The notes beneath the pieces were generated by a model. The model did no database searches and was not told the DNA's origin. It saw only the letters and a program-made list of their open reading frames with translations. Positions 6,813 to 41,736 of a stretch of DNA of 45,674 bases are shown one piece after another (positions within the stretch are counted from its first letter, which is position 1; the number at the start of each line of letters is the position of its first letter). This stretch comes from a virus. Both the position numbers and the translations under genes were made by a program. The stretch lies in the IMG/VR virus record IMGVR_UViG_3300032069_000849, positions 1 to 45,674 of that record; one strand, given 5' to 3'.

Positions 6813-6867
6813 GGGCCCGAATCTCTGGGCCCTCGTGCCGTAGACCGGGCGCGCGGGGATTTTTTTA
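6813..6867 (+). terminator. Possible hairpin and T-tract before the ParB-like gene
   Basis: GGGCCC at 6814-6819 can pair with GGGCCC at 6828-6833 (8-nt loop), and a run of seven T follows at 6861-6867. The 27-nt gap between stem and T-run makes classical termination doubtful. Confidence 0.25.
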
Positions 6868-6902
6868 TGCCGTCAAAATTGATGGGGGGGGGTAGCCGAA
6901 GC

Positions 6903-7463
6903 ATGACGCAAAGGCCCAGGAAAAAGAACTCGCCACGGGCTGCCGTGGAGCAAACGGGAGCCGTTTCTGCGAGCCTCCGGATCGAATACCGGCCCCTGGA
7001 TTCGCTGATTCCGTACGAAAGGAACCCCCGGACGCATACCGAGGAGCAAATCGCCCAGATCGCGGCCAGTATCAAGGAGTTCGGGTTCACGAATCCGGTC
7101 CTTTTGGACGGCGAAAACGGCGTAATCGCCGGCCACGGGCGGCTCGCTGCAGCCCGGAGTCTTGGCTTGAAGACAATCCCGTGCATCGAGCTCGGCCACC
7201 TGACGCCGGAACAGAAGCGCGGCTACCTCATTGCCGACAACAAAATCGCTCAAAATGGCCTCTGGAACGAGGATTTTTTGCGTCTGGAATTGACGGAATT
7301 GAAGGAATTGGGCGCAAATCTTGAGCTTTTGGGCTTCAATCCGATGGAAATCGCTGACATCACGCTCGGGAAGGATGTCGAGTTCAAGGAATACGACGAA
7401 TCCGCTGCCGATGATGTCGAAAAGGTCACTTGCCCGAAATGCGGACACACCTTTCCAAAATAG
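6903..7463 (+). CDS. ParB-like N-terminal-domain protein linked to a split methyltransferase
   Basis: A 186-aa protein with a ParB/Spo0J-type nuclease-like domain: PLDSLIPYERNPRTH (31-45), an IAQIAASIKEFGFTNPVLLD helix, and the hallmark GVIAGHGRLAAARSLG (73-88). It ends in a short Cys pair (CPKCGH). ATG at 6903 follows an eight-G run about 10 nt upstream and is preferred to the in-frame ATG at 6867. It overlaps the methyltransferase catalytic gene by 34 bp, so they are co-transcribed. In phages this domain is often fused to or next to DNA methyltransferases; here the partner is an unusual split m5C enzyme. Its role in methylation is unknown. Confidence 0.8.
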   Translation: MTQRPRKKNSPRAAVEQTGAVSASLRIEYRPLDSLIPYERNPRTHTEEQIAQIAASIKEFGFTNPVLLDGENGVIAGHGRLAAARSLGLKTIPCIELGHLTPEQKRGYLIADNKIAQNGLWNEDFLRLELTELKELGANLELLGFNPMEIADITLGKDVEFKEYDESAADDVEKVTCPKCGHTFPK

Positions 7464-8053
7464 AAGACTACCCGGCGTTCCTCGAAGCGTGTTGGCAGGA
7501 GCACCTGAAGCCCCGGGAGCCCGATGCGCCGACTGTGATCTCGCTTTTCGCCGGCTGCGGCGGCTCTTCGCTCGGCTACAGCATGGCCGGCTACCGGGAA
7601 CTGCTCGCGGTCGAGTGGGACGACCACGCCGTGGAGACTTTCAAGCTCAATTTCCCCGACGTTCCGGTCTGGCATGGCGACATCGCCGAGCTTTCGGCTG
7701 AGGAATGCCTTCGGATCACAGGGCTGGAGCCGGGAAGACTCGACGTTCTGGACGGCTCGCCGCCCTGCCAGGGCTTCTCTACCGCCGGAAAGCGCAAGAT
7801 GGACGACGGCCGCAACCAGCTTTTCCGCGAATACGTCCGCCTGTTACGCGGCTTGAGACCGAAAGTTTTCGTCATGGAGAACGTGAGCGGCATGGTGAAG
7901 GGCAAAATGAAGTTGATCTTTGCCGAAATCATGCGCGAACTGAAGGCCTCGGGCTATAAAGTCTCGGCCAGGTTGATGAACGCCATGTACTTCGGCGTCC
8001 CCCAGTCTCGCGAGCGCATGATTTTCATCGGAATCCGGGAGGACCTTTGCTGA
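7430..8053 (+). CDS. Split m5C DNA methyltransferase, catalytic (alpha) subunit
   Basis: A 207-aa catalytic half of a DNA cytosine-5 methyltransferase. Seen in order: motif I LFAGCGG (39-45, AdoMet binding), motif II VEWDDHAVETF, motif IV GSPPCQGFS with nucleophile Cys113, motif VI ENV (150-152), motifs VII-VIII MYFGVPQSRERMIFIG. The protein stops six residues after motif VIII, where an ordinary enzyme would enter its target-recognition domain; TRD and motifs IX-X are absent. The stop overlaps the next gene by 7 bp, and three proteins carrying the missing parts follow. The first codon is TTG at 7430; ATG at 7439 is equally likely. Architecture matches the alpha subunit of split enzymes such as M.AquI. 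Probable role: self-methylation of phage DNA against host restriction. Confidence 0.9.
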   Translation: MPEMRTHLSKIEDYPAFLEACWQEHLKPREPDAPTVISLFAGCGGSSLGYSMAGYRELLAVEWDDHAVETFKLNFPDVPVWHGDIAELSAEECLRITGLEPGRLDVLDGSPPCQGFSTAGKRKMDDGRNQLFREYVRLLRGLRPKVFVMENVSGMVKGKMKLIFAEIMRELKASGYKVSARLMNAMYFGVPQSRERMIFIGIREDLC

Positions 8054-8520
8054 TTCCCTGCCACCCTGCCGCGCAAACGGCTCCCATACCGGCGGGGGAA
8101 TCGCTCGCCGGCTGCTCCACGCCTCCGGAGCAGCTGGCGGCGCTGTTTGAGGCGGCGAGAAAGTACCGCTCGTTCAAGTACTGGGACAAGATCAAGGTAG
8201 GATCGTCCGAGAGCCGCATCACTGGCCAGGGATTCAACGCGGTGAAGTTCGATCCGAAGAAACCGGCTCGCACTATTCGACGAAATGACGGCAACCTCGG
8301 AATGCATGGCGCCATGTGCTGGAGCGAACGGCGCCGGTTCTCCCTCCCGGAGTTCAAGCGCTTCGGTTCCTTCCCCGATAAATTCGCATTCGCAGGCGCA
8401 TTCGAAGAGGGGATCCGGCAGATCGGCAACTGCGTCCCGCCGCTCTTCATGAGGGCAATCGCGCGCCACATAAGGGAGAAGGTCCTGGCTTCAGTCGCGG
8501 GTTCGGAGCGTGCGGCATGA
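8047..8520 (+). CDS. Split m5C methyltransferase specificity (beta) subunit 1
   Basis: A 157-aa C-terminal half of an m5C methyltransferase. It has the post-motif-VIII linker (CHPAAQTAPIP), a variable target-recognition region with VKFDPKKPARTI (66-77), motif IX RFSLPEFKRFGSFPDKF (97-113) and motif X QIGNCVPPLFMRAIARHIR (125-143). It lacks any catalytic motif. The TTG start overlaps the alpha-subunit stop by 7 bp in another frame, implying translational coupling. Its end overlaps beta 2 by 4 bp (ATGA). A simple frameshifted single gene is unlikely because two further independent C-terminal halves follow. Confidence 0.87.
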   Translation: MLIPCHPAAQTAPIPAGESLAGCSTPPEQLAALFEAARKYRSFKYWDKIKVGSSESRITGQGFNAVKFDPKKPARTIRRNDGNLGMHGAMCWSERRRFSLPEFKRFGSFPDKFAFAGAFEEGIRQIGNCVPPLFMRAIARHIREKVLASVAGSERAA

Positions 8521-8957
8521 ACTTGCACCCGCAACCGTGGACGGAGCCGGTGACAGCGAGGCAGGCAATCGGACACCTTGAAGCATCCATCCAGTCGCGC
8601 ATGGGCCACCGGCGGCAGGCACTTATCGATGCCTGGCGCAAATGCCCGCCGGGTAAGTCGCTGCGAAAGACGGTCCCGAATGTTTCCTCTTTCGAGTCGG
8701 TGAGACTCGATCCCGACAAGCCGAGCACGACGCAGACGAATCATTCCAACTGGCACTACGCGGCGCCGCGGTATCTGACGCTTGAGGAAACGGCTCTGAT
8801 CGGCAGCTTCGATCCGGGTTTCCGCTGGCCGGCAAAGCAGGGGCACTCCAAAAGGCAGATCGGCAACAGCGTTCCTCCGCTTTTTATGAGGGCGATCGCG
8901 CGACATATCAGAGCGAAGATCCTTGATCAGATTCCCAGGAGAGAGGAAGCGGCTTGA
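8517..8957 (+). CDS. Split m5C methyltransferase specificity (beta) subunit 2
   Basis: A 146-aa protein of the same build as beta 1 with a different recognition region. It has the linker LHPQPWTEPV (3-12), VRLDPDKPSTTQ (62-73), motif IX RYLTLEETALIGSFDPGF (85-102) and motif X QIGNSVPPLFMRAIARHIR (114-132). The helix after GN(C/S)VPP is identical to beta 1 in 13 consecutive residues, whereas the part between linker and motif IX is dissimilar. ATG overlaps the beta 1 stop (ATGA). It cannot methylate alone because motifs I-VIII are missing, and presumably pairs with the catalytic subunit. Confidence 0.87.
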   Translation: MNLHPQPWTEPVTARQAIGHLEASIQSRMGHRRQALIDAWRKCPPGKSLRKTVPNVSSFESVRLDPDKPSTTQTNHSNWHYAAPRYLTLEETALIGSFDPGFRWPAKQGHSKRQIGNSVPPLFMRAIARHIRAKILDQIPRREEAA

Positions 8958-9502
8958 GCCTCCATCCAAATCCGCTCTATCAGCCGATCCCGGTCAAAGC
9001 AGTCATTCTCCGGGCGCTCGGCACGAGATCCCAGCGGATTAATCCATGGATTCCCGCAGCCGAGCCCGCGGCGACGATCTGCAAGACCGAGGCCGGCTAT
9101 CAGCTGAAGGAATGCGAGATCCGGACTACCTGGCAGATGTATCGGGTCCTCACGGGGCAGGAAAGAAAGAACCACTTCGGGCTCATCAAACTGGATCCTG
9201 AAAAGCCGTCCCCGACCATTCTCAGCGGAGTGGGAGGGACAACCACGGGACTCGTCCACCCCTGGGAAATCCGCAAGCTGACGATAGATGAAGCGAAGGC
9301 GCTGGCCTCCTACCCGAAGGCATTCGAGATCAGGGGCGGCTACAACGCCAGGTGGTCAAGGATCGGTAACAGCGTTCCCCCGCTCTTCATGCGGGCGATT
9401 GCGCATCATGTGCGGAATGTGGTGCTGAAGGGGGAGACACACGAATCCCTCAGGACCGTGTGTCTCCCGAATCGGGAGGAAGCAAGGAGAGAGGCTTGTT
9501 AG
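8954..9502 (+). CDS. Split m5C methyltransferase specificity (beta) subunit 3
   Basis: A 182-aa third C-terminal half. It has the linker LHPNPLYQPIPV (3-14, close to beta 2), a longer recognition region with IKLDPEKPSPTI (78-89), motif IX RKLTIDEAKALASYPKAF (107-124) and motif X RIGNSVPPLFMRAIAHHVR (136-154). The TTG start overlaps the beta 2 stop (TTGA). About 22 residues beyond motif X are partly encoded by a strong inverted repeat (9432-9468) and may be a non-essential tail. The stop overlaps the convergent RadC-like gene by 4 bp. Role: an alternative sequence-specificity partner for the catalytic subunit (inference). Confidence 0.86.
   Translation: MSLHPNPLYQPIPVKAVILRALGTRSQRINPWIPAAEPAATICKTEAGYQLKECEIRTTWQMYRVLTGQERKNHFGLIKLDPEKPSPTILSGVGGTTTGLVHPWEIRKLTIDEAKALASYPKAFEIRGGYNARWSRIGNSVPPLFMRAIAHHVRNVVLKGETHESLRTVCLPNREEARREAC
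9432..9468. repeat. 11-bp perfect inverted repeat at the end of the methyltransferase operon
   Basis: GGGAGACACAC (9432-9442) pairs exactly with GTGTGTCTCCC (9458-9468) across a 15-nt loop, inside the last codons of beta 3. A second small palindrome (CCCGAATCGGG, 9466-9476) overlaps its right arm. It lies between two convergent genes, so it may act as a bidirectional transcription barrier, although no T-run follows. Confidence 0.55.
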
Positions 9503-9978
9503 GGGAGGGAACTCGGATTGTCCGCGAGCATTCCGGCATCGGCGAAAGAAAAAAATTCGGTATCTCCGCAGACGATGTGGTCAAGGATGCGAATGCCGAG
9601 AAATCTGCCGGCCTGAAACAGTCTGGCCGTGCACTCGCGATCCTCTCTGCTCGGCGTGGGATCGCCGCTAGGATGCAGATGCAGACATATGATCGCCGCG
9701 CAGTTGGCGATTATGGCGGCCTTGAAGACCTCGGGGGCCGCTACCACGGCAGAGTTCAGGCTCCCCTGGGAAACGAAGTTGACGCCGATCAGGCGGTGCT
9801 TGCTGTCCAACATCAGAACGTGGAATTGCTCGCGATCGGCATCGGCATAGAGCTGCTCGCGCGCGAATTCGAATGCCTGCCGCGAATTGCTGAAGCATTT
9901 CCAGCTGCTGCGAAGCGAGCCGTCGCGCACCAAGGATACACGCTGTCTCGGAATGCGGTAGTTGATTGGATCCGGCAT
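9499..9978 (-). CDS. RadC-like JAB/MPN domain protein
   Basis: A 159-aa protein of the RadC family limited to the JAB/MPN metallo-domain. Seen: Glu50 in EQFHVLMLD, then the metal-binding signature HLHPSGDPTPSRED at 100-113 (H-x-H...S...D). Full-length RadC has an N-terminal helix-hairpin-helix part that is missing here, as is common for mobile-element versions. The biochemical role of RadC proteins is not settled. It is transcribed against the methyltransferase operon with the small basic gene at 10015-10338. Confidence 0.85.
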   Translation of the reverse strand: MPDPINYRIPRQRVSLVRDGSLRSSWKCFSNSRQAFEFAREQLYADADREQFHVLMLDSKHRLIGVNFVSQGSLNSAVVAAPEVFKAAIIANCAAIICLHLHPSGDPTPSREDRECTARLFQAGRFLGIRILDHIVCGDTEFFSFADAGMLADNPSSLP

Positions 9979-10452: not shown

Positions 10453-10920
10453 ATGAACGCCGGAAGAAAGCCGAAACCCACGGCCCTGAAAGTCATCCAG
10501 GGGACGTACAGGCCCGACCGGGCCAACCTCTCCGAGCCCCGTCCGCGTCCCGGGATTCCTCCCTGCCCCAAGTTCCTGCAGGGGGATGCGCGCGAGGCCT
10601 ACCGGAAGACGGCGAAGAAACTCGCGCGCATCGGGTTACTTACGGAACTTGACGACATGGCGCTCTCGATGCTCTGCCAGTCCTGGGCGGAGTACCTCGA
10701 AGCCACCGACCAGGTGCGAAAGACCGGCATGCTGGTCAAATCGCCGAACGGATTTCCCGTGTTCAATCCCTATCTCGTTATCGCGAACCAGGCGGTCAAG
10801 AAGGTCCGCTCGCTTCTCGCCGAGTTCGGCATGTCGCCGAGTTCCCGCAGCAGGATCGCGGCCGCCGGCGCCGGGCATGAATCTGAAAGCGGCGAGTGGA
10901 TGGAACTCCTCGACGACTGA
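10453..10920 (+). CDS. terS: Terminase small subunit, P27 family
   Basis: A 155-aa DNA-packaging protein. The N-terminal GRKPKPTALKVIQGTYRPDR is typical of P27-type small terminases, followed by PPCPKFLQGDAREAYRKTAKKLARIGLLTELDDMALSMLCQSW and NPYLVIANQAVKKVRSLLAEFGMSPSSRSRI, the conserved C-terminal part. It recognises phage DNA and loads the large subunit encoded 3 bp downstream. Length fits the family. No strong ribosome site precedes this ATG, but no better start is apparent. Confidence 0.92.
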   Translation: MNAGRKPKPTALKVIQGTYRPDRANLSEPRPRPGIPPCPKFLQGDAREAYRKTAKKLARIGLLTELDDMALSMLCQSWAEYLEATDQVRKTGMLVKSPNGFPVFNPYLVIANQAVKKVRSLLAEFGMSPSSRSRIAAAGAGHESESGEWMELLDD

Positions 10921-10923
10921 TGG

Positions 10924-12606
10924 ATGACCAAGGGCGGGAAGGATTATGCGGCCATCGCGAGAGCCTACGCCGAAGGCGTGCTGTCGGGGCACATTCCGGC
11001 TTGCGAGTGGGTAAAGAAGGCATGCCGCAGGCAGATCGCCGACCTCGAGCGGAAGGACTTCGCTCACCGCTACGACGAGAAGAAGGCGGCGCGCGTCTGC
11101 AGATTTATCGAGAAGCTGCCGCACATCAAAGGCAAATGGGCGAAGGCGGGTGGAAGGATCGAGCTTCAGCCCTGGCAGATATTCATCCTGACGGCGGTCT
11201 TCGGCTGGGTGTCGTGCAACACCGGCTTGCGGCGCTTCAAGACAGTCTATTTGGAGATGCCCCGCAAGAATGGCAAGAGCTCGATGTCGAGCGGCGTCGG
11301 GATCTACTGCTGCTGCGCCGACGGCGAGGAGGGCGGGGAGATCTACTCGGCCGCGACGACGCGCGATCAGGCGAAGATCGTCTGGCAGGACGCCTGGCAC
11401 ATGGTCGAGCGGTCGCCCGGGCTGAAGGCGGCATTCGGCGTCTCGACGACGGCGCATGCGATCAGCCAGGTGAGGACGGCGAGCCGGTTCCAGGCGCTCT
11501 CGGCCGAGGGGAACAGCCTGGACGGCCTGAACATCCACTGCGCGATCGTGGACGAACTCCACGCCCACAGGACGCGCAAGGTGTTCGACGTGCTGGAAAC
11601 GGCGACCGGCGCGCGCTCCCAGCCGCTGCTCTGGCTGATCACGACGGCCGGCTCGGACATGAGCGGGATCTGCTACGAGCAGAGGACGTACCTGATCAAG
11701 ATCCTCGACGGGGTCGTGAAGGACGACACCTATTTCGGGGTGATTTACACGATCGACGACGGGGACGACTGGAGTTCCCCGAAGGTATGGGCCAAAGCGA
11801 ATCCCAACTATGGCGTCTCGGTCTTTCCGGAGGACATCGAGCGGCTGTGCGTGAAGGCGCTCAAGATGCCGAGCGCCCAGAACAACTTTCTCACCAAGAG
11901 GCTTTCGGTCTGGGTCAACGCGGACTGCGCATTCTTCAACATGGTCGAGCTTGCGAAGTGCGCCGATCCGAAGCTGAAAGCGGAGGACTTCCTGGGGGAG
12001 CCGTGCTGGATCGGGATCGACCTTGCCACCCGGCGTGACATCGCCCCGAGGATTCAGCTTTTCCGGCGCGAGGATCACTACTACTGCTTCGGGCGCTACT
12101 ACCTGCCCGAGTCCGAGATCGAGGGCTCAAAGAATTCGCAGTACTCGGGCTGGGTCAAGGCGGGCTGGATTACCTCAACGCCAGGGAACATCATCGACTT
12201 CGGCTATATCGAGGAAGACCTCATCGGACTTGCCTCCAAGTACCAGATCCTGGAGGTGGACTACGATCCCTTCCAGGCGAATCAGTTTACGACACGGATG
12301 ATGAAGGAAGGGTTTCCCATGGTCGAGATGAGGCAGCTGGTAAAAACCTTCTCGGAACCCATGAAGCACCTGGACGCGCTGATATCAGCAGGCAAGTTCC
12401 ACTATAACGGCGATCCCGTCCTGAGCTGGATGTTTTCGAATGTCGTCGCCCATTTCGACAACAAGGACAACGTGTATCCGAAAAAGCAACGCCCCGAGAA
12501 CAAGATCGACGGGGTCGTGGCCCTTTTGATGTGCCTGGGAAGGGCGATGGCGGCCGATGCGGAGCCGGGATCGATCTACGAAAAGAGAGGTCCGATATTC
12601 GTATGA
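10924..12606 (+). CDS. terL: Terminase large subunit
   Basis: A 560-aa packaging motor and nuclease. ATPase half: LQPWQIFILTAVFGW adenine-binding region, Walker A variant MPRKNGKS at about 112-119, Walker B CAIVDELHAH at about 206-215 and the LITTAGS coupling motif. Nuclease half: IGIDLATRRDIA at about 363-374, VDYDPFQANQ, and a final acidic residue in NKIDGVVALLMCLG. All key residues are visible and length is normal for the HK97/P27-associated group. It ends overlapping a small membrane-protein gene by 4 bp. Confidence 0.95.
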   Translation: MTKGGKDYAAIARAYAEGVLSGHIPACEWVKKACRRQIADLERKDFAHRYDEKKAARVCRFIEKLPHIKGKWAKAGGRIELQPWQIFILTAVFGWVSCNTGLRRFKTVYLEMPRKNGKSSMSSGVGIYCCCADGEEGGEIYSAATTRDQAKIVWQDAWHMVERSPGLKAAFGVSTTAHAISQVRTASRFQALSAEGNSLDGLNIHCAIVDELHAHRTRKVFDVLETATGARSQPLLWLITTAGSDMSGICYEQRTYLIKILDGVVKDDTYFGVIYTIDDGDDWSSPKVWAKANPNYGVSVFPEDIERLCVKALKMPSAQNNFLTKRLSVWVNADCAFFNMVELAKCADPKLKAEDFLGEPCWIGIDLATRRDIAPRIQLFRREDHYYCFGRYYLPESEIEGSKNSQYSGWVKAGWITSTPGNIIDFGYIEEDLIGLASKYQILEVDYDPFQANQFTTRMMKEGFPMVEMRQLVKTFSEPMKHLDALISAGKFHYNGDPVLSWMFSNVVAHFDNKDNVYPKKQRPENKIDGVVALLMCLGRAMAADAEPGSIYEKRGPIFV

Positions 12607-34404: not shown

Positions 34405-34645
34405 TCGCTTCGCCACGGCCATCCTAGCGCAGTTTGTTAGCGCCCTTTCGGGCGCCGCATGAGCGAAATCCCGGTTTTCGAGCGTTCCATACCTCGCCGG
34501 CCGATACTGCCTCCGCGGCACAACTGAGGCGCCATTTGCGGCACAAGCAAGGGCCAATGGATCGCGAAATTCTCGCTCTGAATAAGCTCATTTTGGGGTC
34601 ACTTTTTTGTTGCGCGCTTTACGTCACTTACGTTACTCTAATCAC
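34405..34645. other. Junction region before the methyltransferase gene
   Basis: 240 bp without a convincing gene. It holds a perfect 6-bp stem with TTTC loop (34441-34456, GCGCCC/GGGCGC) and, at the right end, the putative promoter of the methyltransferase. Composition is mixed, consistent with a cargo boundary. Confidence 0.4.
34610..34639 (+). promoter_or_regulatory. Putative promoter of the type II methyltransferase gene
   Basis: TTGCGC (34610-34615) and TACTCT (34634-34639) are 18 bp apart. The ATG is only 6 bp after the -10-like box, suggesting a leaderless or very short leader. Direct repeats ACGTCACTT and ACGTTACTC lie in the spacer and overlap the -10-like box, a possible operator. 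Confidence 0.35.
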
Positions 34646-35818
34646 ATGGCACACGGAGACTCAGGACGGATTGTGATCGACGTCGAGCTGGATTTAAAGC
34701 GCCAGCTCTATGCTGCGCTCTCGCTGAAGGGCAGTACCCTAAAGGACTGGTTTAGGAAATCCGCCGAGGCGTTCTGCGCGGAGACAATGCGACCATCCCG
34801 GTTCAGAGATGCGAGGGTATCAGAAACGCAGAGCCCATATTTGCCTTGGCCCAAGCCGAGGAACGATATGACGCTTGAGCCGCGGAAGGCCGAGACCGCC
34901 TACACGCTGGTGTCCATGTTTTCTGGCTGCGGCGGTATGGACCTCGGCTTCATTGGAGGGTTTGAGGTTTTCGGCCGGACCTACGCACCCTTGCCTTTCA
35001 GAATCGTCTGGGCTAATGACAACAATCAGGCCGCCTGCAAGACATACAAGGAAAATCTCGGCCACGATATCAAGGACGGAAGCGTATGGGATGTTTTGGA
35101 CTCGTTGCCCGAAAAAGCTGATGTCCTAGTCGGAGGTTTTCCGTGCCAGGATGTCTCGGTCAACGGCAAACGGCGTGGCCTCAACGGCTCCCGAACCAGT
35201 CTCTACAAGGCGATGGTCAAGGCTATCGAGAAGGTGAAGCCGAAGGTGTTCGTCGCGGAGAATGTGAAGGGATTGCTGATGGGCGAGAACCAAGGCTGGG
35301 CGAAGCAAGTACTGGATGACTTCAAGGCATTGGGTTACGAGGTGCAGAAACCGAAGATTTACAGAGCTGCCGATTATGGAGTTCCGCAGACTCGGGAACG
35401 GATCTTCTTCGTAGGCACCGCGGCCGGCGTGAAGCCGTTCGAGCCTCCTCCCGCTGAGCGCAACGCAGCTACGTGGATGACGGCCAAGGAGGCTTTGGCA
35501 GACCTGGAAAGCATTGAGGAGTCGCCGGAGATCAACCACATCTGGAGCCGGGCGAATAAGAGCCCCGAACAGGGCAATCGACGGCTGATCCCGGGAAGGC
35601 CCGCGTACACAATCAGAGCCGAGTGCCACGGCAACATCCAGTACCACTACAGCCTTCCGCGTCGCATCTCGATGCGCGAGGCAGCGCGGATTCAGTCCTT
35701 CCCTGACTCGTTCATCTTCCATGCGAAGCTGAGGGAGACCGAGCGGCAGGTGGGGAACGCGGTCCCTCCGGTCTTGGCATGGCACATGGCAAAGGCGGTT
35801 CTGGCCTGCCTTGAGTGA
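34646..35818 (+). CDS. Type II m5C DNA methyltransferase with N-terminal ribbon-helix-helix segment
   Basis: A complete 390-aa cytosine-5 methyltransferase. Residues 7-45 (GRIVIDVELDLKRQLYAALSLKGSTLKDWFRKSAEAFC) have the strand-helix-helix pattern of a ribbon-helix-helix DNA-binding domain. Catalytic motifs follow: MFSGCGGMDLGF, GGFPCQDVS with Cys167, AENVKGLL, YGVPQTRERIFFVG, TRD, and motif X QVGNAVPPVLAWHMAKAV. The restriction enzyme gene converges 7 bp away. The extra N-terminal domain may let the enzyme repress its own promoter, as fused HTH domains do in M.EcoRII/M.SsoII-type enzymes. Recognition sequence unknown. Confidence 0.92.
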   Translation: MAHGDSGRIVIDVELDLKRQLYAALSLKGSTLKDWFRKSAEAFCAETMRPSRFRDARVSETQSPYLPWPKPRNDMTLEPRKAETAYTLVSMFSGCGGMDLGFIGGFEVFGRTYAPLPFRIVWANDNNQAACKTYKENLGHDIKDGSVWDVLDSLPEKADVLVGGFPCQDVSVNGKRRGLNGSRTSLYKAMVKAIEKVKPKVFVAENVKGLLMGENQGWAKQVLDDFKALGYEVQKPKIYRAADYGVPQTRERIFFVGTAAGVKPFEPPPAERNAATWMTAKEALADLESIEESPEINHIWSRANKSPEQGNRRLIPGRPAYTIRAECHGNIQYHYSLPRRISMREAARIQSFPDSFIFHAKLRETERQVGNAVPPVLAWHMAKAVLACLE

Positions 35819-35825
35819 CGCGTCA

Positions 35826-36851
35826 TCATCTAAACAGCACTTCGGATGGTTTCCAGGTCGTGGCGAAATCATCCGCGCGTCTGAGCCACTCCTTTATGCG
35901 TTGGCCAGGGGGGACATCCGCGCCCCAATATTCCACGAACAGAGCGGAGTCAAGGGTCGCGGCCGCCTTCCGCATCTCGTCCTCAATATCAAGCAGCGCG
36001 CGCATTACATAGTTGCCGCCGCGCTTCGAGCTCCCGCGGAGGGCTACGCTCCCGGCAGAGAAGAGGTCGCGGGCCTGGCTCACGAGAACGCCACGGTAGG
36101 TGATCAGATACATCGCGACATCGTCGTACTTGTGTTTGGAACGGGAGGTCTTGACGATCTGCGGACACAACAGCGCAGCCTCCGCTCGTAGCCTGCGCTT
36201 TTCCTCTTGGTCCAAGCCCATATATAACCGAGCCTGGATCGGAAGTGAGTGGCCCTGGTCCGGCCGGTCCTCAAGCCACCAGAGACGCTCGCCCTTTTTC
36301 AGGCGGCTTCGCGCATACTTGCGAATGTGCTCCATCCGCTGGTGAATCGACAACTGACAGAAGTCCTTGTACGAGATGCCGAATTTCTTGAACAGCGACT
36401 CCTTCGGATCGGCGCCCTCGCGCGGGATCTCGACCTCAAACCGCGGCACGTGTGATGTTCTGACATGCATCACGCATTCCTCGTAACGCCCCCAAGCCAC
36501 CTCCGGGTCTCCACCCATCTTGCCGAAGACCACGTAGATGTGCTCCACCTCAGTCTTGCGCATGCTCTCTAAAACGCTGTTCGCCACGCTCCTCCACGTG
36601 TCGTTCTCGGTGAACTTCACCTCGATTCCGAACTTGCCGAGGACGATATCTGGGAATGCGTAAGGATGCGGCTCGAAGTCAACGGCGAGTTTATATTCGG
36701 CGACCAGGTCCTGCGTTACCTGCCTCACTCTGTTCTCGAACTCGGCCGACTTCCTGTACTCGCGACGCGACCGGCATTCATCCGTGAGCATTTCACAGAG
36801 GCGGTGCAGCACTCCCTCGAATTCGCGCATGGTCAAATCAGCTTTTGGCAT
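35826..36851 (-). CDS. Type II restriction endonuclease (PD-(D/E)XK)
   Basis: A 341-aa nuclease: FPDIVLGKFGIEVKF at 66-80 gives PD67-68...E77-x-K79, an intact PD-(D/E)XK core. The remainder is charged, with a Trp-rich middle (RLWWLEDRPDQGH) and a C-terminal region rich in Arg/Lys. Start at ATG 36851, overlapping the Vsr stop by 14 bp; longer in-frame sequence upstream is a shadow of Vsr. Convergent with the methyltransferase gene and transcribed from the Vsr promoter. It should cut unmethylated DNA at the site protected by the neighbouring methyltransferase. Confidence 0.85.
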   Translation of the reverse strand: MPKADLTMREFEGVLHRLCEMLTDECRSRREYRKSAEFENRVRQVTQDLVAEYKLAVDFEPHPYAFPDIVLGKFGIEVKFTENDTWRSVANSVLESMRKTEVEHIYVVFGKMGGDPEVAWGRYEECVMHVRTSHVPRFEVEIPREGADPKESLFKKFGISYKDFCQLSIHQRMEHIRKYARSRLKKGERLWWLEDRPDQGHSLPIQARLYMGLDQEEKRRLRAEAALLCPQIVKTSRSKHKYDDVAMYLITYRGVLVSQARDLFSAGSVALRGSSKRGGNYVMRALLDIEDEMRKAAATLDSALFVEYWGADVPPGQRIKEWLRRADDFATTWKPSEVLFR

Positions 36852-37278
36852 CCGAGCGCACCTGTAAGGAATTTGATAAGAGAATGTGGAGTCGTGAGAC
36901 GACCAAACGAGGCGTGTCGAGGGAGTGCTCCCAAATGCGGTAGACCTGCCAGCCTTTTTGGTGCAGCAGCCTTTTGACCTCAAGATCGCGCGCCCTGTTG
37001 CGGGCGATCTTGAGCTGCCAATAATCAAGCCGGCTCTTCGGCATCCGGCAGTGTTTCGGGCATCCGTGCCAGAAACAGCCATCGATGAAAAGCGCGATGC
37101 GCTCGCGCCGGAACGAAAAATCAGGACGACCAGGCAGTGTGGATACGTGGCGCCGCCACCCTGTGATACCGGCCTCTCTGAGGATCATAGCCAGCTTTGC
37201 CTCGGTGTCCCGGTTGCCGCGTGAGCGGACCGCGGCCATCATCCGGGAACGTGTCTGTTTGTCATACTTATCTGTCAC
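36838..37278 (-). CDS. vsr: Very short patch repair endonuclease (Vsr)
   Basis: A 146-aa mismatch nuclease that nicks T:G mismatches made when 5-methylcytosine deaminates; usual companion of m5C methyltransferases. Seen: DKQTRSRMMAAVRSRGNRDTEAKLAMILREAGITGWRRH, GRPDFSFRRERIALFIDGCFWHGCPKHC with catalytic Asp and zinc ligands, and WQVYRIWEH. GTG at 37278 gives the standard length; another GTG at 37332 is possible. It forms an operon with the restriction enzyme. Confidence 0.92.
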   Translation of the reverse strand: MTDKYDKQTRSRMMAAVRSRGNRDTEAKLAMILREAGITGWRRHVSTLPGRPDFSFRRERIALFIDGCFWHGCPKHCRMPKSRLDYWQLKIARNRARDLEVKRLLHQKGWQVYRIWEHSLDTPRLVVSRLHILLSNSLQVRSDAKS

Positions 37279-37676: not shown

Positions 37677-38465
37677 ATGGGGCACATCAGGTTAGGAAGA
37701 CTGCCCAGAACACGAAAGTGGAATCAGGTCCTTGGCCTGATAGGCGGAGGCGCGGACGCCCCGGAAGTTGCGGCCTCTGCAATGGAGGCTTCCCAAGGAG
37801 GACTGGTCAAAGCTGCAAAAGATCCGGGCCTCATCCACACAGTCTGGCTTCTCACCCAGATTCCGCTGGCCGCGCGGAGCGAACATTTCGCGGACGGCCT
37901 CCGGCAGCTCGGACTCGAGGTATCAAACGCCCCAAGCCTCCTGGAGGTTGCCGGAGCCTTCACTGGCGCGGTGGATGCCCACCTGCGCCGCGGCGGCGGA
38001 CGCACCGACCTCGGCGAGATGGCAGAGATGGCAGCCGCCGAGACCCTCACGCGCCTCGGTAATGTCAAGACTGCCAGCCTCTTCGGCGCCACCGCGGCAG
38101 ACGTCCAGCAGGCATTCGGAAGCTTCTCGACAACGAAGCAGTTCGGCACACTCGCCCGGGAATTCTTCACACGCCTCTCGAAAAAGTACCTGACCTATTT
38201 TCTCAGCCGGGAACTTTCGAATTACGTCGATGGCGGGGGCGGCAGCCGTTTCTCCAACATCGACGAACACGCAGAGTTCAACGAAGCGCTGGACCTCCAC
38301 TGCCGCCAGGCCTCGCGCATCGTCGAGGAATTCTCCGGAGGCTGGTTCTCCAAGGCCAATTTCGAGGGAGGGATCACTCCGGAGAAGGCAGCCGGATTCG
38401 TCCATGTCGCCCTGAAAAAGCTGCGGGCTGAGCTCGCGAAGGGAGGCACGCCGCATGAGCAATGA
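37677..38465 (+). CDS. Partner protein of a QueC-like enzyme, unknown fold, Met-Gly start
   Basis: A 262-aa protein beginning MGHIRLGRLPRTRKW, with a helical body: VAASAMEASQGGLVKAAKDPGLIHTVWLLTQIPLAARSEHF, GEMAEMAAAETLTRLG, FGTLAREFFTRLSKKYLTYFLSRELSNYVDGGG, HVALKKLRAELAKGG. ATG at 37677 has GAGGATGG just upstream; frame further upstream lacks coding character. It overlaps the QueC-like gene by 11 bp, so they are translationally coupled. I do not recognise the family. The invariantly exposed Gly after Met is notable because QueC-like defence enzymes have been reported, to my recollection, to modify a partner's N terminus; this is inference. Confidence 0.75.
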   Translation: MGHIRLGRLPRTRKWNQVLGLIGGGADAPEVAASAMEASQGGLVKAAKDPGLIHTVWLLTQIPLAARSEHFADGLRQLGLEVSNAPSLLEVAGAFTGAVDAHLRRGGGRTDLGEMAEMAAAETLTRLGNVKTASLFGATAADVQQAFGSFSTTKQFGTLAREFFTRLSKKYLTYFLSRELSNYVDGGGGSRFSNIDEHAEFNEALDLHCRQASRIVEEFSGGWFSKANFEGGITPEKAAGFVHVALKKLRAELAKGGTPHEQ

Positions 38466-40419
38466 GCGTGTCATCCTTTGCGGAGGGCTGCCCGCTCCGG
38501 CCAAGGTTGCGAAGAAGGCCATAGTCCCGCTGCAGCTATGGGGCAGGGATCCAAACGTCAATCTCACAATCGCCGACATCAGCCGGAAGATGGTGGCCAA
38601 CCTTAATCCTGTGTTCATCGATCTTCTGGAAATAGCCGCGTACATCTACTGCGCCGATCAGGCAACCACCCGGGGCGGGGATACCTGGAAGAGTTGTGGC
38701 GCGAGGTGGAGGCGCCATTTCCAATTCCACATCCCGGTCCGTGAACCCGGGATATGGTCATCGGAGGACGTTCTCACACCCCTGCGCGACACATTGGCAT
38801 TTCTCTCAGACGACGAATATGAATTCACTTTCGAGAGGCTTTCCGAGCCACACCCTGTAGAGCAGTATCTCGATTTCACCACTGGAGAAAATACCGGATT
38901 TGCGCCAGAGGAAGTCATCCTCTTTTCTGGAGGCCTCGACTCATTGTCAGGCGCGATACAGGAGGCTGTTGCCGGAAAGGCGGTCGCATTGGTCAGCCAC
39001 CGGTCCTCACCGAAGATTGACAAGCGGCTAAGGGGACTCGTGGAGGATCTCAGGGAGCGCTCTCCGAAAGAGCATCTCCACGTGCCGGTCTGGGTTAATA
39101 AGGATAAGAATCTGGGCAGGGAATATACGCAGCGGACACGATCATTTCTTTATGCCTCGCTGGCAGCCGTGGTAGCGCGAATCTTTGGCCTCTCAGGAGT
39201 CCGCTTCTATGAAAACGGGGTCATAAGCATTAACCTCCCGATTTCATCCCAGGTGGTGGGCGGTCGCGCGACAAGGACTACGCACCCCCAGGTTCTTAAT
39301 GGTTTCTCCGACATCTTCACGGCCCTTTTCCGGAAGCCGTTCATCGTCGAGAACCCTTTTATGTGGATGACCAAAGCGGAGGTGGTGCGGTCCATCCGCG
39401 AAGCGGGCTTTAACGGCCTTATCAAGCACTCTGTCAGCTGCACCCATGTCTGGGAGACAACGAAACTGAAGACACACTGCGGCACTTGCTCGCAGTGCAT
39501 CGACCGGCGCTTCGCCACGCTGTCGGCCGGATGCCCGGACCAAGAGGATCCTGAGGAGATGTACGCCGTCGATCTGCTAAAGGGAGCGCGCGAACCCGGC
39601 GAATCCCGAACGATGTTGGAGTCATACGTTCGAACCGCGAAGCGGGTCAAGGACATGTCCGACAACGCCTTCTTCTCGGAGTTCGGCGAGGTTCACCGGG
39701 TAACCAGGCACATCCGCGGCAGGAGCGTGGATGATGCAGCCTCCAGAATCCTGGATCTCTATAAGCGCCATGCGGCAGAAGTGTGCGACGTAATAACTGC
39801 AGGATACCGCGAGCACGCCCAAGACATCAGCGACGGCAGCCTTCCCAGCTCGAGTCTTCTGATCTTGGCCTTGCCCGAACCGTACAAGAAGCCGGCAACG
39901 CATGACAATCCGCCGCCGGCAGCGTTATTGGCTCTTGATGAAATCCGCGACGGCGAAACCAACCAGGGATTGCTCGCGCGAATAGTGGGGAGCGGCCGGT
40001 TCGACGGAGTGAACAAGAAGATCGGCTCACGAGAGCTCTTCTTTATCTATCTGCTTTTCGGGTCCACCCGCTCCTATCACGTGGATGGAGAGCACCTGAC
40101 TGTCGTAACGGAAGAGGAAGCCGCGCGAGAGTTAGTCAAGTGGAGCGATGGTGGCCACCTCCAATTCTCGGGGAAGGATGAAGACAATCCGGCCCACCGG
40201 ATCAAGAAGATGTGGGGCGAGTTCGTCCGCCAGATCGAAAAGGAGAAGAATCTCAAAGGCCTCTTCACCAACCATCATAAGGATCCGAACGGGGAGAAGC
40301 TCTACGGACTGCGCCTCCGCCCGGATGAAAAGCAGATCCGCGTACAAAGCATCGCGGCGCTCTTCCGGAAGACGGCTGAGCAGGCACAAGCAGCGCCCTC
40401 CACAGCCCGCAAAAGCTAA
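38455..40419 (+). CDS. QueC-like PP-loop ATPase, putative defence enzyme
   Basis: A 654-aa protein. An N-terminal region (1-150) is followed by a QueC-type domain: PP-loop VILFSGGLDSLSGA with SGGLDS at 158-163, VSHRSSPKI, and a zinc site of Cys329 plus HCGTCSQC (342, 345, 348), matching QueC's four-cysteine arrangement. The C-terminal ~175 residues add a domain ending in a winged-helix-like part. QueC makes preQ0 in queuosine synthesis, but no other queuosine gene is here. QueC-like proteins also occur in Qat (QatC) and type IV CBASS (Cap9) immunity. The pairing and prophage cargo site favour defence. It is longer than plain QueC (about 230 aa). Confidence 0.82.
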   Translation: MSNERVILCGGLPAPAKVAKKAIVPLQLWGRDPNVNLTIADISRKMVANLNPVFIDLLEIAAYIYCADQATTRGGDTWKSCGARWRRHFQFHIPVREPGIWSSEDVLTPLRDTLAFLSDDEYEFTFERLSEPHPVEQYLDFTTGENTGFAPEEVILFSGGLDSLSGAIQEAVAGKAVALVSHRSSPKIDKRLRGLVEDLRERSPKEHLHVPVWVNKDKNLGREYTQRTRSFLYASLAAVVARIFGLSGVRFYENGVISINLPISSQVVGGRATRTTHPQVLNGFSDIFTALFRKPFIVENPFMWMTKAEVVRSIREAGFNGLIKHSVSCTHVWETTKLKTHCGTCSQCIDRRFATLSAGCPDQEDPEEMYAVDLLKGAREPGESRTMLESYVRTAKRVKDMSDNAFFSEFGEVHRVTRHIRGRSVDDAASRILDLYKRHAAEVCDVITAGYREHAQDISDGSLPSSSLLILALPEPYKKPATHDNPPPAALLALDEIRDGETNQGLLARIVGSGRFDGVNKKIGSRELFFIYLLFGSTRSYHVDGEHLTVVTEEEAARELVKWSDGGHLQFSGKDEDNPAHRIKKMWGEFVRQIEKEKNLKGLFTNHHKDPNGEKLYGLRLRPDEKQIRVQSIAALFRKTAEQAQAAPSTARKS

Positions 40420-40654: not shown

Positions 40655-40903
40655 ATGACCTACGAAACCAGGATCGGCATCGAGATCGCAGGCATCCGGC
40701 GTTCGATTCGGGTCGAGTTCAAGTATCGGATAAAGGCCGTAAAGAGCAAGCCGGTGGCAATTCATGAATCGGCAACCGTCTGCTGCTGGGGAGAACGGTC
40801 TTCTGGCGAATGGATCTATGACGCGATGGGGACCCGCCAGCTCGAGGAGTTGGACAGCAGGCTGATCGAGTGCTGGAAATCAGAAAAAGGCAAGGCTGCA
40901 TGA
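40655..40903 (+). CDS. Small phage early protein
   Basis: An 82-aa protein (MTYETRIGIEIAGIRRSIRVEFKYRIKAVKSKPVAIHESATVCCWGERSSGEW...), beta-rich. ATG at 40655 has GGAGAAAAGG upstream; ATG at 40613 is an alternative. It is first in the early operon and overlaps the ParB-like gene by 4 bp. No family recognised. Confidence 0.6.
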   Translation: MTYETRIGIEIAGIRRSIRVEFKYRIKAVKSKPVAIHESATVCCWGERSSGEWIYDAMGTRQLEELDSRLIECWKSEKGKAA

Positions 40904-41736
40904 AAATCGCGGACATCAGGATCGGCAGGCGGTCGCGCAAGGACCCAGGGGACATCGGATCCCTGGCCCGCAGCATCGAAACGACCGGACTCATCCATCC
41001 GATCGCAGTCAGCCCAGATGGAAGTCTCATCGCCGGTTTCAGACGCATTCAGGCTTTCAAACTGCTTGGGCGCGACGAGATCCCCCACCGGGTGATCGAC
41101 TCCCTCGATGACGCCCTCAAGATCCTCCAGGCCGAGCGCGATGAAAACACTGAGCGCAAACAGCTCAATCCATCCGAAGCCCTCGAACTGGCAGAGCGAC
41201 TGGAGCCCCTGGAGCGGGAAGCCGCAAGAGAGCGGAGGGGAAAAGCGGGCTTCCGTAAAGACGCCGTAAGTCCAATGAAATCTGCTGTGGATAATTTATC
41301 CACACCGTCCTGCGGCGGCCGCGCTTCGGACAAGATAGCTTCAGCCGTCGGCCTCTCCCGTCACACACTCGCCAAAATCAAAGCCGTCACCGAAGCAGCA
41401 AAGCAGAATCCCGAACGCTATCAGCCTCTCGTTGAAGAGATGGACCGCACCGGGAAGGTGGATCGGGTGTCAAAGCAGCTCGGCCGCATGAAGGCGGAGG
41501 ATGCAGGCCCCATTCCGGCGGAGGTCTCCCGGCACAACCCGGAATGGCGATGGACTATGGCTCTTCACGATCTCTACAAATTCATGAATTCAACCCGGGA
41601 CGCCGGCGGCATCGAAAAACTCGTGACCTCATGGTCTGGGAAAGCCCGGGCGCAGTACATGGAAGAAATCCGGATGGTCATCGCGGTATTGCAGCGATGG
41701 GCGTCCTATCTGGAAAGGAGCGACAATGAAGTCTAA
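40900..41736 (+). CDS. ParB-like DNA-binding protein of the replication region
   Basis: A 278-aa ParB/RepB-type protein: ADIRIGRRSRKDPGDIGSLARSIETTGLIHPIAV, then SLIAGFRRIQAFKLLGRDEIPHRVI (a GFRR version of the ParB motif), QLNPSEALELAERLEP, and the helix-turn-helix ASDKIASAVGLSRHTLAKIKAVTEAA. The C-terminal part is variable. There is no ParA gene here, so regulation or replication control is as likely as partition. Its own coding sequence carries a 19-bp palindrome (repeat copy B), a possible autoregulatory or origin site. Confidence 0.82.
   Translation: MKIADIRIGRRSRKDPGDIGSLARSIETTGLIHPIAVSPDGSLIAGFRRIQAFKLLGRDEIPHRVIDSLDDALKILQAERDENTERKQLNPSEALELAERLEPLEREAARERRGKAGFRKDAVSPMKSAVDNLSTPSCGGRASDKIASAVGLSRHTLAKIKAVTEAAKQNPERYQPLVEEMDRTGKVDRVSKQLGRMKAEDAGPIPAEVSRHNPEWRWTMALHDLYKFMNSTRDAGGIEKLVTSWSGKARAQYMEEIRMVIAVLQRWASYLERSDNEV
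41263..41302 (+). repeat. Copy B of the 40-bp repeat, with two inverted DnaA boxes
   Basis: 36 of 40 positions match 18715-18754. Its end contains the perfect 19-bp palindrome TGTGGATAATTTATCCACA (two bases run past the repeat), made of two inverted consensus DnaA boxes (TTATCCACA) with one base between. It lies within the ParB-like coding sequence, between the ParB-motif and HTH regions. Confidence 0.75.

Follow-up and report, generated by a model that had tools for sequence, protein, structure and literature searches.

A candidate split cytosine methyltransferase with one catalytic and three specificity genes in a temperate phage

The four genes and their conservation

The stretch of DNA analysed here, IMG/VR virus record IMGVR_UViG_3300032069_000849, is 45,674 bases long and is referred to below as the window; coordinates are those of the window unless a locus label precedes them. 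Since it carries terminase, portal, tape-measure and integrase genes, it represents a temperate tailed phage. In tandem on its plus strand lie four overlapping genes that share out the motifs of a 5-methylcytosine (m5C) DNA methyltransferase: the first, alpha, encodes the catalytic half, and each of the next three, beta1, beta2 and beta3, encodes a target-recognition domain (TRD) followed by motifs IX and X. The architecture of one alpha and three betas is established.

Alpha (7439..8053) matches positions 2-165 of the 324 in Pfam profile PF00145 (E 2.9e-52) and contains motifs I-VIII, among them FAGCGG, SPPCQGFS (with the catalytic cysteine codon at 7766-7768), MENV and QSRERMIFIG. It ends about eight residues past motif VIII and has no TRD sequence. 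The three betas (8047..8520, 8517..8957 and 8954..9502) match the C-terminal part of the same profile, at positions 241-323 (E 3.8e-10), 239-322 (E 1.9e-9) and 269-321 (E 5.8e-8), respectively; motif X of beta1 reads RQIGNCVPPLFMRAIARHIRE. A Pfam scan of the betas returned PF00145 only, and HsdS-type domains were not found. The sequence hallmarks of an m5C methyltransferase are thus present, the PCQ cysteine, ENV and QxRxR in alpha and a TRD with motifs IX and X in each beta. Every beta opens with an ‘LHP’-like stretch, which in single-chain relatives directly follows motif VIII.

The genes are joined by short overlaps. That between alpha and beta1 is 7 nucleotides (nt) long (8047..8053), the TTG start of beta1 lying four bases ahead of the alpha TGA, with GGGAGGA 5′ of it; beta1 and beta2 overlap by 4 nt (ATGA), as do beta2 and beta3 (TTGA, with a TTG start). 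An initial annotation made from the DNA letters had described a catalytic half ending after QSRERMIFIG and three separate genes with TRD, IX and X and without motifs I-VIII, linked by overlaps of 4-7 nt of which two use non-ATG starts, and our analysis agrees with it on each of these points. The exception is the start of alpha, which had been placed at TTG 7430. Each of the five loci that have an alpha gene shows a start codon at position 7439 (ATG in four, GTG in one), which is not true of 7430, and on this comparison alpha probably begins at ATG 7439, within a 25-nt overlap with the upstream gene. At the other end of the array, the last 24 or so codons of beta3 overlap a hairpin and are not kept in all relatives. 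Homologues of beta3 were found in seven other contigs, with the sequence GTRSQRINPW invariant.

Relatives of alpha were gathered from viral contigs and genomes, those of the betas were searched for separately, and the architecture of each locus (L followed by a number) was read with profiles built from the collected loci. Two independent metagenome contigs, L007 and L008, have the alpha-beta1-beta2-beta3 order of the window, and a further two, L009 and L010, have alpha-beta1-beta3. Beta1 and beta3 are found together at a contig edge in L127 and L129, where alpha would lie beyond the edge, and L128 has a beta3; in whole or in part, the split is present in seven different IMG metagenomes (L007-L010 and L127-L129). 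In a search of phage and plasmid records no close multi-beta relative was found, and the best alpha match was about 63% identical.

Across these loci the start codon at the junctions varies between ATG, GTG and TTG but is never lost. Beta1 starts with GTG in L010 and with TTG in the four other loci that include alpha, whilst the beta2/beta3 junction, in three loci, reads TTGA, GTGA and ATGA. Upstream of most beta starts there is Shine-Dalgarno-like pairing, with most values lying between -4.3 and -12.1 kcal/mol, where the background has a median of -3.3. Pairwise values of omega, the ratio of nonsynonymous to synonymous change, are 0.06-0.10 for alpha, 0.09-0.13 for beta1, 0.18-0.26 for beta2 and 0.10-0.35 for beta3, values that indicate purifying selection on each of the four genes. 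The independent contigs, the retained start codons and ribosome-binding sites and the low omega values together argue that the split is neither a frameshift artefact nor a product of decay. Two further loci, L038 and L039, were considered as independent splits of the form X-A|X (X, a TRD-IX-X module; A, a I-VIII core) and rejected, as L038 has an in-frame stop just 5′ of motif IX and the junction in L039 has no start codon.

Fold, mechanism and rival explanations

Alpha and beta3 lie in one reading frame, and the segment from 7439 to 9499 was modelled as a single chain in which approximately 300 out-of-frame residues serve as an unstructured linker, practically unoccupied by homologues in the underlying alignment. 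AlphaFold2 returned a pLDDT (predicted local distance difference test) score of about 95-98 for alpha and 92-98 for the IX-X core of beta3, compared with about 35 for the linker. The model aligns with the structure 8YF3 with a Z score of 37.1 over 316 residues, with M.HaeIII at 31.0 over 274 residues and with M.HhaI at about 30.6 over 299-305 residues, and in each case the alignment spans both subunits. The initial annotation had suggested modelling as a check on whether the betas complete the alpha fold; for beta3 the model shows that the two parts are predicted to form a complete m5C-methyltransferase fold, a statement about fold compatibility as distinct from binding in trans.

The closest solved structure to the window enzyme, both by sequence and by fold, is 8YF3, that of CmoX, a DNA cytosine C5-carboxymethyltransferase from Synechococcus phage S-B43 (PDB 8YF3, PMC12783734). 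This raised the possibility of carboxymethylation. In CmoX, carboxy-SAM (SAM, S-adenosylmethionine) is held by Arg-350 in motif X, equivalent to Asn-304 of HhaI (PMC12783734). At that position beta1, beta2 and beta3 have GNC, GNS and GNS, respectively, and thus asparagine in all three; asparagine is also found in nearly every intact motif X of the family, with serine in one relic and no arginine or lysine seen. Carboxymethylation was rejected on these grounds, and ordinary methylation would be expected. As this residue lies in the betas, alpha alone would have an incomplete cofactor site.

These features suggest a scheme in which alpha is the SAM-binding and catalytic core. Lacking both a TRD and motif X, it should be inactive on its own. 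Each beta would bring one TRD together with motifs IX and X, of which motif X would complete the cofactor pocket and pack back onto the core. One beta at a time would pair with alpha, giving up to three enzymes, each methylating a different sequence. All four proteins would be made from one mRNA by coupled termination and reinitiation at the 4-7 nt overlaps, a mode of translation that the junction sequences strongly suggest. By analogy with the multispecific enzymes of Bacillus phages, and from the location next to the terminase genes, we infer that the most likely purpose is masking of the phage DNA against several host restriction enzymes.

We consider it likely, as the initial annotation had proposed, that these genes encode a split, multi-partner phage m5C methyltransferase in which one alpha is served by three alternative betas. 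The layout itself is observed; that alpha assembles with alternative partners and that three motifs are methylated is what we infer from it. Several points weigh against this interpretation. Individual betas are dispensable, as L009 and L010 have no beta2 and the beta1 gene of L010 is frameshifted internally. The architecture is limited to one phage lineage. The docking of alpha and beta3 in the model is drawn from the single-chain homologues in the alignment, and the model of alpha pairing covers beta3, completion of the fold by beta1 and beta2 resting on homology. Finally, motif X is alike in beta1 and beta2 (75%, the 98th percentile), whilst pairs involving beta3 are unremarkable when set against unrelated single-chain enzymes, and there is thus no sequence sign that the betas have co-adapted to one alpha.

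The most probable of the rival explanations is that a heterodimer of alpha and beta1 resembling M.AquI is the only active enzyme, and that beta2 and beta3 are inactive remnants left when C-terminal halves were duplicated in tandem or recombined. Beta1 takes the precise place that the C-terminal half has in a single-chain enzyme, beta2 is missing in two relatives and has an omega that exceeds those of alpha and beta1, and decayed beta fragments are present in Acidobacteriota genomes. However, beta2 and beta3 retain motifs IX and X and their start codons, with omega well below 1, and beta3 is the most widely shared of the betas (eight loci), retained in L010 in spite of the frameshifted beta1. 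The TRDs are moreover mutually unrelated, which means that the betas are not recent duplicates. Taken together, these observations make this explanation unlikely.

A second alternative concerns the alpha/beta1 junction. If programmed frameshifting there yielded a single alpha-beta1 chain, the other two betas would either compete in trans or stay silent. The two frames do overlap, the sequence CTTTGCTGA at the junction could slip, and a -1 shift would restore the single-chain register. The junction sequence varies between loci, however (GACCTGTGCAGCTGA in L010), whereas a start codon persists there; furthermore, beta2 and beta3 have ATGA and TTGA junctions of their own, and a slip near alpha cannot join them to it. 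We therefore regard frameshifting as very improbable.

It is equally hard to credit that the extra betas are DNA-binding regulators, or competitors that keep alpha inactive until it is needed. The betas should indeed compete for the single surface of alpha, and in other m5C enzymes the hydrophobic C-terminal helix is presumed to be exposed when a C-terminal fragment is on its own (PMC5944983). Nevertheless, all three betas retain the whole of motifs IX and X, including the asparagine on the cofactor side, for which a pure regulator has no need. Least credible is the idea that the genes are one methyltransferase in decay or wrongly assembled. Although the family is otherwise single-chain and L107 and L120 are broken versions in metagenome-assembled genomes (MAGs) of Acidobacteriota, independent metagenomes carry the same split under purifying selection, and a single N-terminal part is accompanied by three C-terminal parts that differ from each other; the relatives already contradict this idea.

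Origin of the split and genomic setting

In a phylogeny built from 94 alpha-type cores, the loci with a split form one supported set of six (Shimodaira-Hasegawa-like approximate likelihood ratio test, SH-aLRT, 97), the sixth member being the broken L107. The rest of the family is overwhelmingly single-chain, with 88 members of the A-X form, in which one TRD-IX-X module (X) follows the I-VIII core (A), and eight of the X-A-X form, in which the core has a module on both sides. As the split clade is nested among some 80 single-chain relatives, the split is the derived state. The tree, together with the start of beta1 in the register of the single-chain C-terminal half, points to a frame break directly past motif VIII, and the split probably arose once in this way from a single-chain enzyme. 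The initial annotation had named, as a possible refutation, related genomes in which the gene is intact and the present form is due to assembly frameshifts: a single chain is indeed ancestral, but the split is common to independent contigs.

The TRDs of the three betas are dissimilar to each other, and each type recurs in single-chain enzymes: that of beta1 in L136 and L137 (49-52%), that of beta2 in L067, L047, L056 and L110 (44-49%, with L067 at 49%) and that of beta3 in L115 and L041 (49-52%) and in L028 (42%). The beta2 TRD is also 51% identical to the N-terminal module of L012. We considered whether beta3 might carry two TRDs and rejected this, since single-chain homologues (L115, L028 and an Azospirillum plasmid enzyme, residues 20-159) span the whole of its TRD.

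The X-A-X single chains are scattered over the family tree and include L012:3518-5041, L031:3503-4936, L043:3-1478, L058:3752-5089, L068:2357-3970 and L106:754-2187. In a structure model of L012 (mean pLDDT 90) both modules are folded, the C-terminal one in the canonical position. Two members are circularly permuted, with TRD-IX-X ahead of motifs I-VIII and none after (L040:2089-3222 and L077:75-1094). The TRD-IX-X unit is thus an independent evolutionary module, found as separate 3′ genes, as a C-terminal fusion, as an N-terminal fusion or at both ends. An orphan beta is found at L089:3559-4029, with a TRD, motifs IX and X and a basic N-terminal extension, immediately 5′ of apparent packaging genes including terminase; there is no alpha within 3.5 kb upstream of it. 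The sequence closest to it is L090 (61%), at the edge of a contig.

Comparison of the split loci shows that betas are gained, lost and diversified one at a time. Some close relatives have beta2 and others lack it. Between the window and L008, beta3 is more diverged than alpha, beta1 or beta2 (synonymous divergence is saturated and nucleotide identity falls), which fits an exchange of cassettes. A more speculative extension, which we put forward tentatively and think rather unlikely, is that the locus is a modular specificity array, in which exchangeable beta cassettes are gained, lost and recombined singly beside a constant alpha and compete for it as the limiting partner; an orphan beta such as that of L089 might then act in trans and redirect the alpha of another phage resident in the same host.

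The search for a host covered Acidobacteriota, and among the 396 genomes of the phylum that were searched, broken pieces of the array were found in four, all belonging to one class (38 genomes). These pieces point to that class as the host, and the window probably derives from a phage of Acidobacteriota. The broken pieces make up the loci L107, L120, L145, L146 and L147, and in L145 the gene that comes after beta1, with an ATGA overlap, is a beta of a fourth kind, which is also disrupted. One of them, L107, might be taken for an intact alpha-beta1 fusion or ancestor. This was rejected, as motif VIII is destroyed by the disruption across which its frame enters beta1; the contig coverage of 2.8x, and the tail of a beta3 2 kb further on, also speak against it.

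The alpha/beta operon sits within the packaging module of the phage. Its 5′ neighbour is a plus-strand gene (6867..7463) for a ParB_N-domain protein with a C-terminal zinc ribbon (PF02195, E 1.9e-6), which overlaps alpha; of the 89 related loci that have enough flank, 82 show a ParB_N gene immediately 5′ and in the same orientation. On the 3′ side a RadC-like gene is convergent with the operon (9499..9978, minus strand; phrog_10276, E 5.5e-36), and shortly downstream come the genes for the small and large terminase subunits (10453..12606, plus strand; phrog_83, E 1.1e-39, and phrog_9, E 8e-177). In most of the loci checked among the alpha relatives a terminase is likewise close on the 3′ side.

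The RadC-like protein is 56% identical to that of L007 (L007:2806-3255), whilst for the same pair of phages ParB is 95%, TerS 97% and TerL 99% identical, a drop which implies a recombination spot directly 3′ of the beta array. Between the operon and radC there is a conserved hairpin, GGGAGACACACG...CGTGTGTCTCCC (9432..9468; fold -26.4 kcal/mol), which has no T-run and is possibly a terminator; a scan of the window against Rfam at the gathering threshold gave no match. An equivalent hairpin is found in L008, L010 and L107 at 0.8-2 kb past beta3 or beta1 (800-900 nt past beta3 in L008 and L010), the greater distance indicating that additional DNA has been inserted at this point.

Elsewhere in the window, between the structural genes and the integrase, is a complete type II restriction-modification (R-M) pair (34607-37082), consisting of a single-chain m5C methyltransferase (34607-35818) and a convergent restriction enzyme (PADLOC REase_II, E 4e-133); this is a system separate from the alpha/beta genes. 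A QatC/QueC-like protein is encoded at 38455-40419 (PADLOC QatC, E 3e-54; PF06508), possibly as part of Qat-type defence cargo or of a 7-deazaguanine pathway, and a second ParB_N-domain gene lies at 40870-41736. In phage populations, methyltransferase genes are some of the most variable (PMC7468147).

Comparison with known systems

The general logic of a common catalytic subunit with exchangeable specificity subunits is that of the type I R-M systems, in which several HsdS share one HsdM. Those systems methylate adenine or the N4 position of cytosine, have two TRDs in each S subunit and are unrelated in sequence to the genes described here. Among m5C enzymes the closest parallel in the distribution of motifs is M.AquI, a two-subunit enzyme with motifs I-VIII on one polypeptide and IX-X on a second, both of which are needed; it is cut within the variable region, so that the large subunit retains the proximal half, whilst in M.EcoHK31I motif X and the TRD remain with the large subunit (PMC3404938). 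The window shares the partition of motifs seen in M.AquI. It differs in being cut directly after motif VIII, leaving alpha without TRD sequence, and in having three betas whose TRDs are unrelated to each other (L009 and L010 have two betas), where M.AquI and M.EcoHK31I each have one beta. The initial annotation had read the genes as a merger of the M.AquI type with the multispecific phage enzymes; with M.AquI they share the motif partition, but neither the cut site nor the number of betas per alpha.

The multispecific m5C enzymes of Bacillus phages (SPR, SPbeta, phi3T and rho11s) have several TRDs in one chain and protect against several R-M systems (PMC12707154). They too combine one catalytic core with several TRDs in a temperate phage, but their TRDs are arranged in series between motifs VIII and IX, with a single IX-X, whereas those of the window are separate genes, each with its own IX-X. 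The mutual dissimilarity of the window TRDs is suggestive, at the level of sequence, of several target sequences. Another phage m5C enzyme, M.phiBssHII, reportedly has TRDs at separated locations in one chain; if so, it resembles the window in having more than one TRD-bearing module per core, by the logic also seen in the X-A-X relatives, and differs from it in being a single chain. In the circularly permuted enzymes M.BssHII, M.Alw26I and M2.BsaI the TRD-IX-X module functions in an altered topology (PMC5944983). These are single chains with one TRD; the window enzyme is split rather than permuted, although its relatives L040 and L077 are of the permuted kind.

The initial annotation knew of no described example of one alpha with several betas, and we likewise found no description in the openly searchable papers. 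The parts are familiar from the two-subunit, the multispecific and the permuted m5C enzymes, whilst a catalytic gene accompanied by two or three stand-alone recognition genes has no description among those papers. The layout would join two known ideas in a combinatorial form, in which a new specificity could be acquired by insertion of a single gene of 450-550 nt. Tools for split or programmable m5C methylation could be developed from it, and it would provide a naturally occurring case in which to test how a catalytic subunit is divided among several partners.

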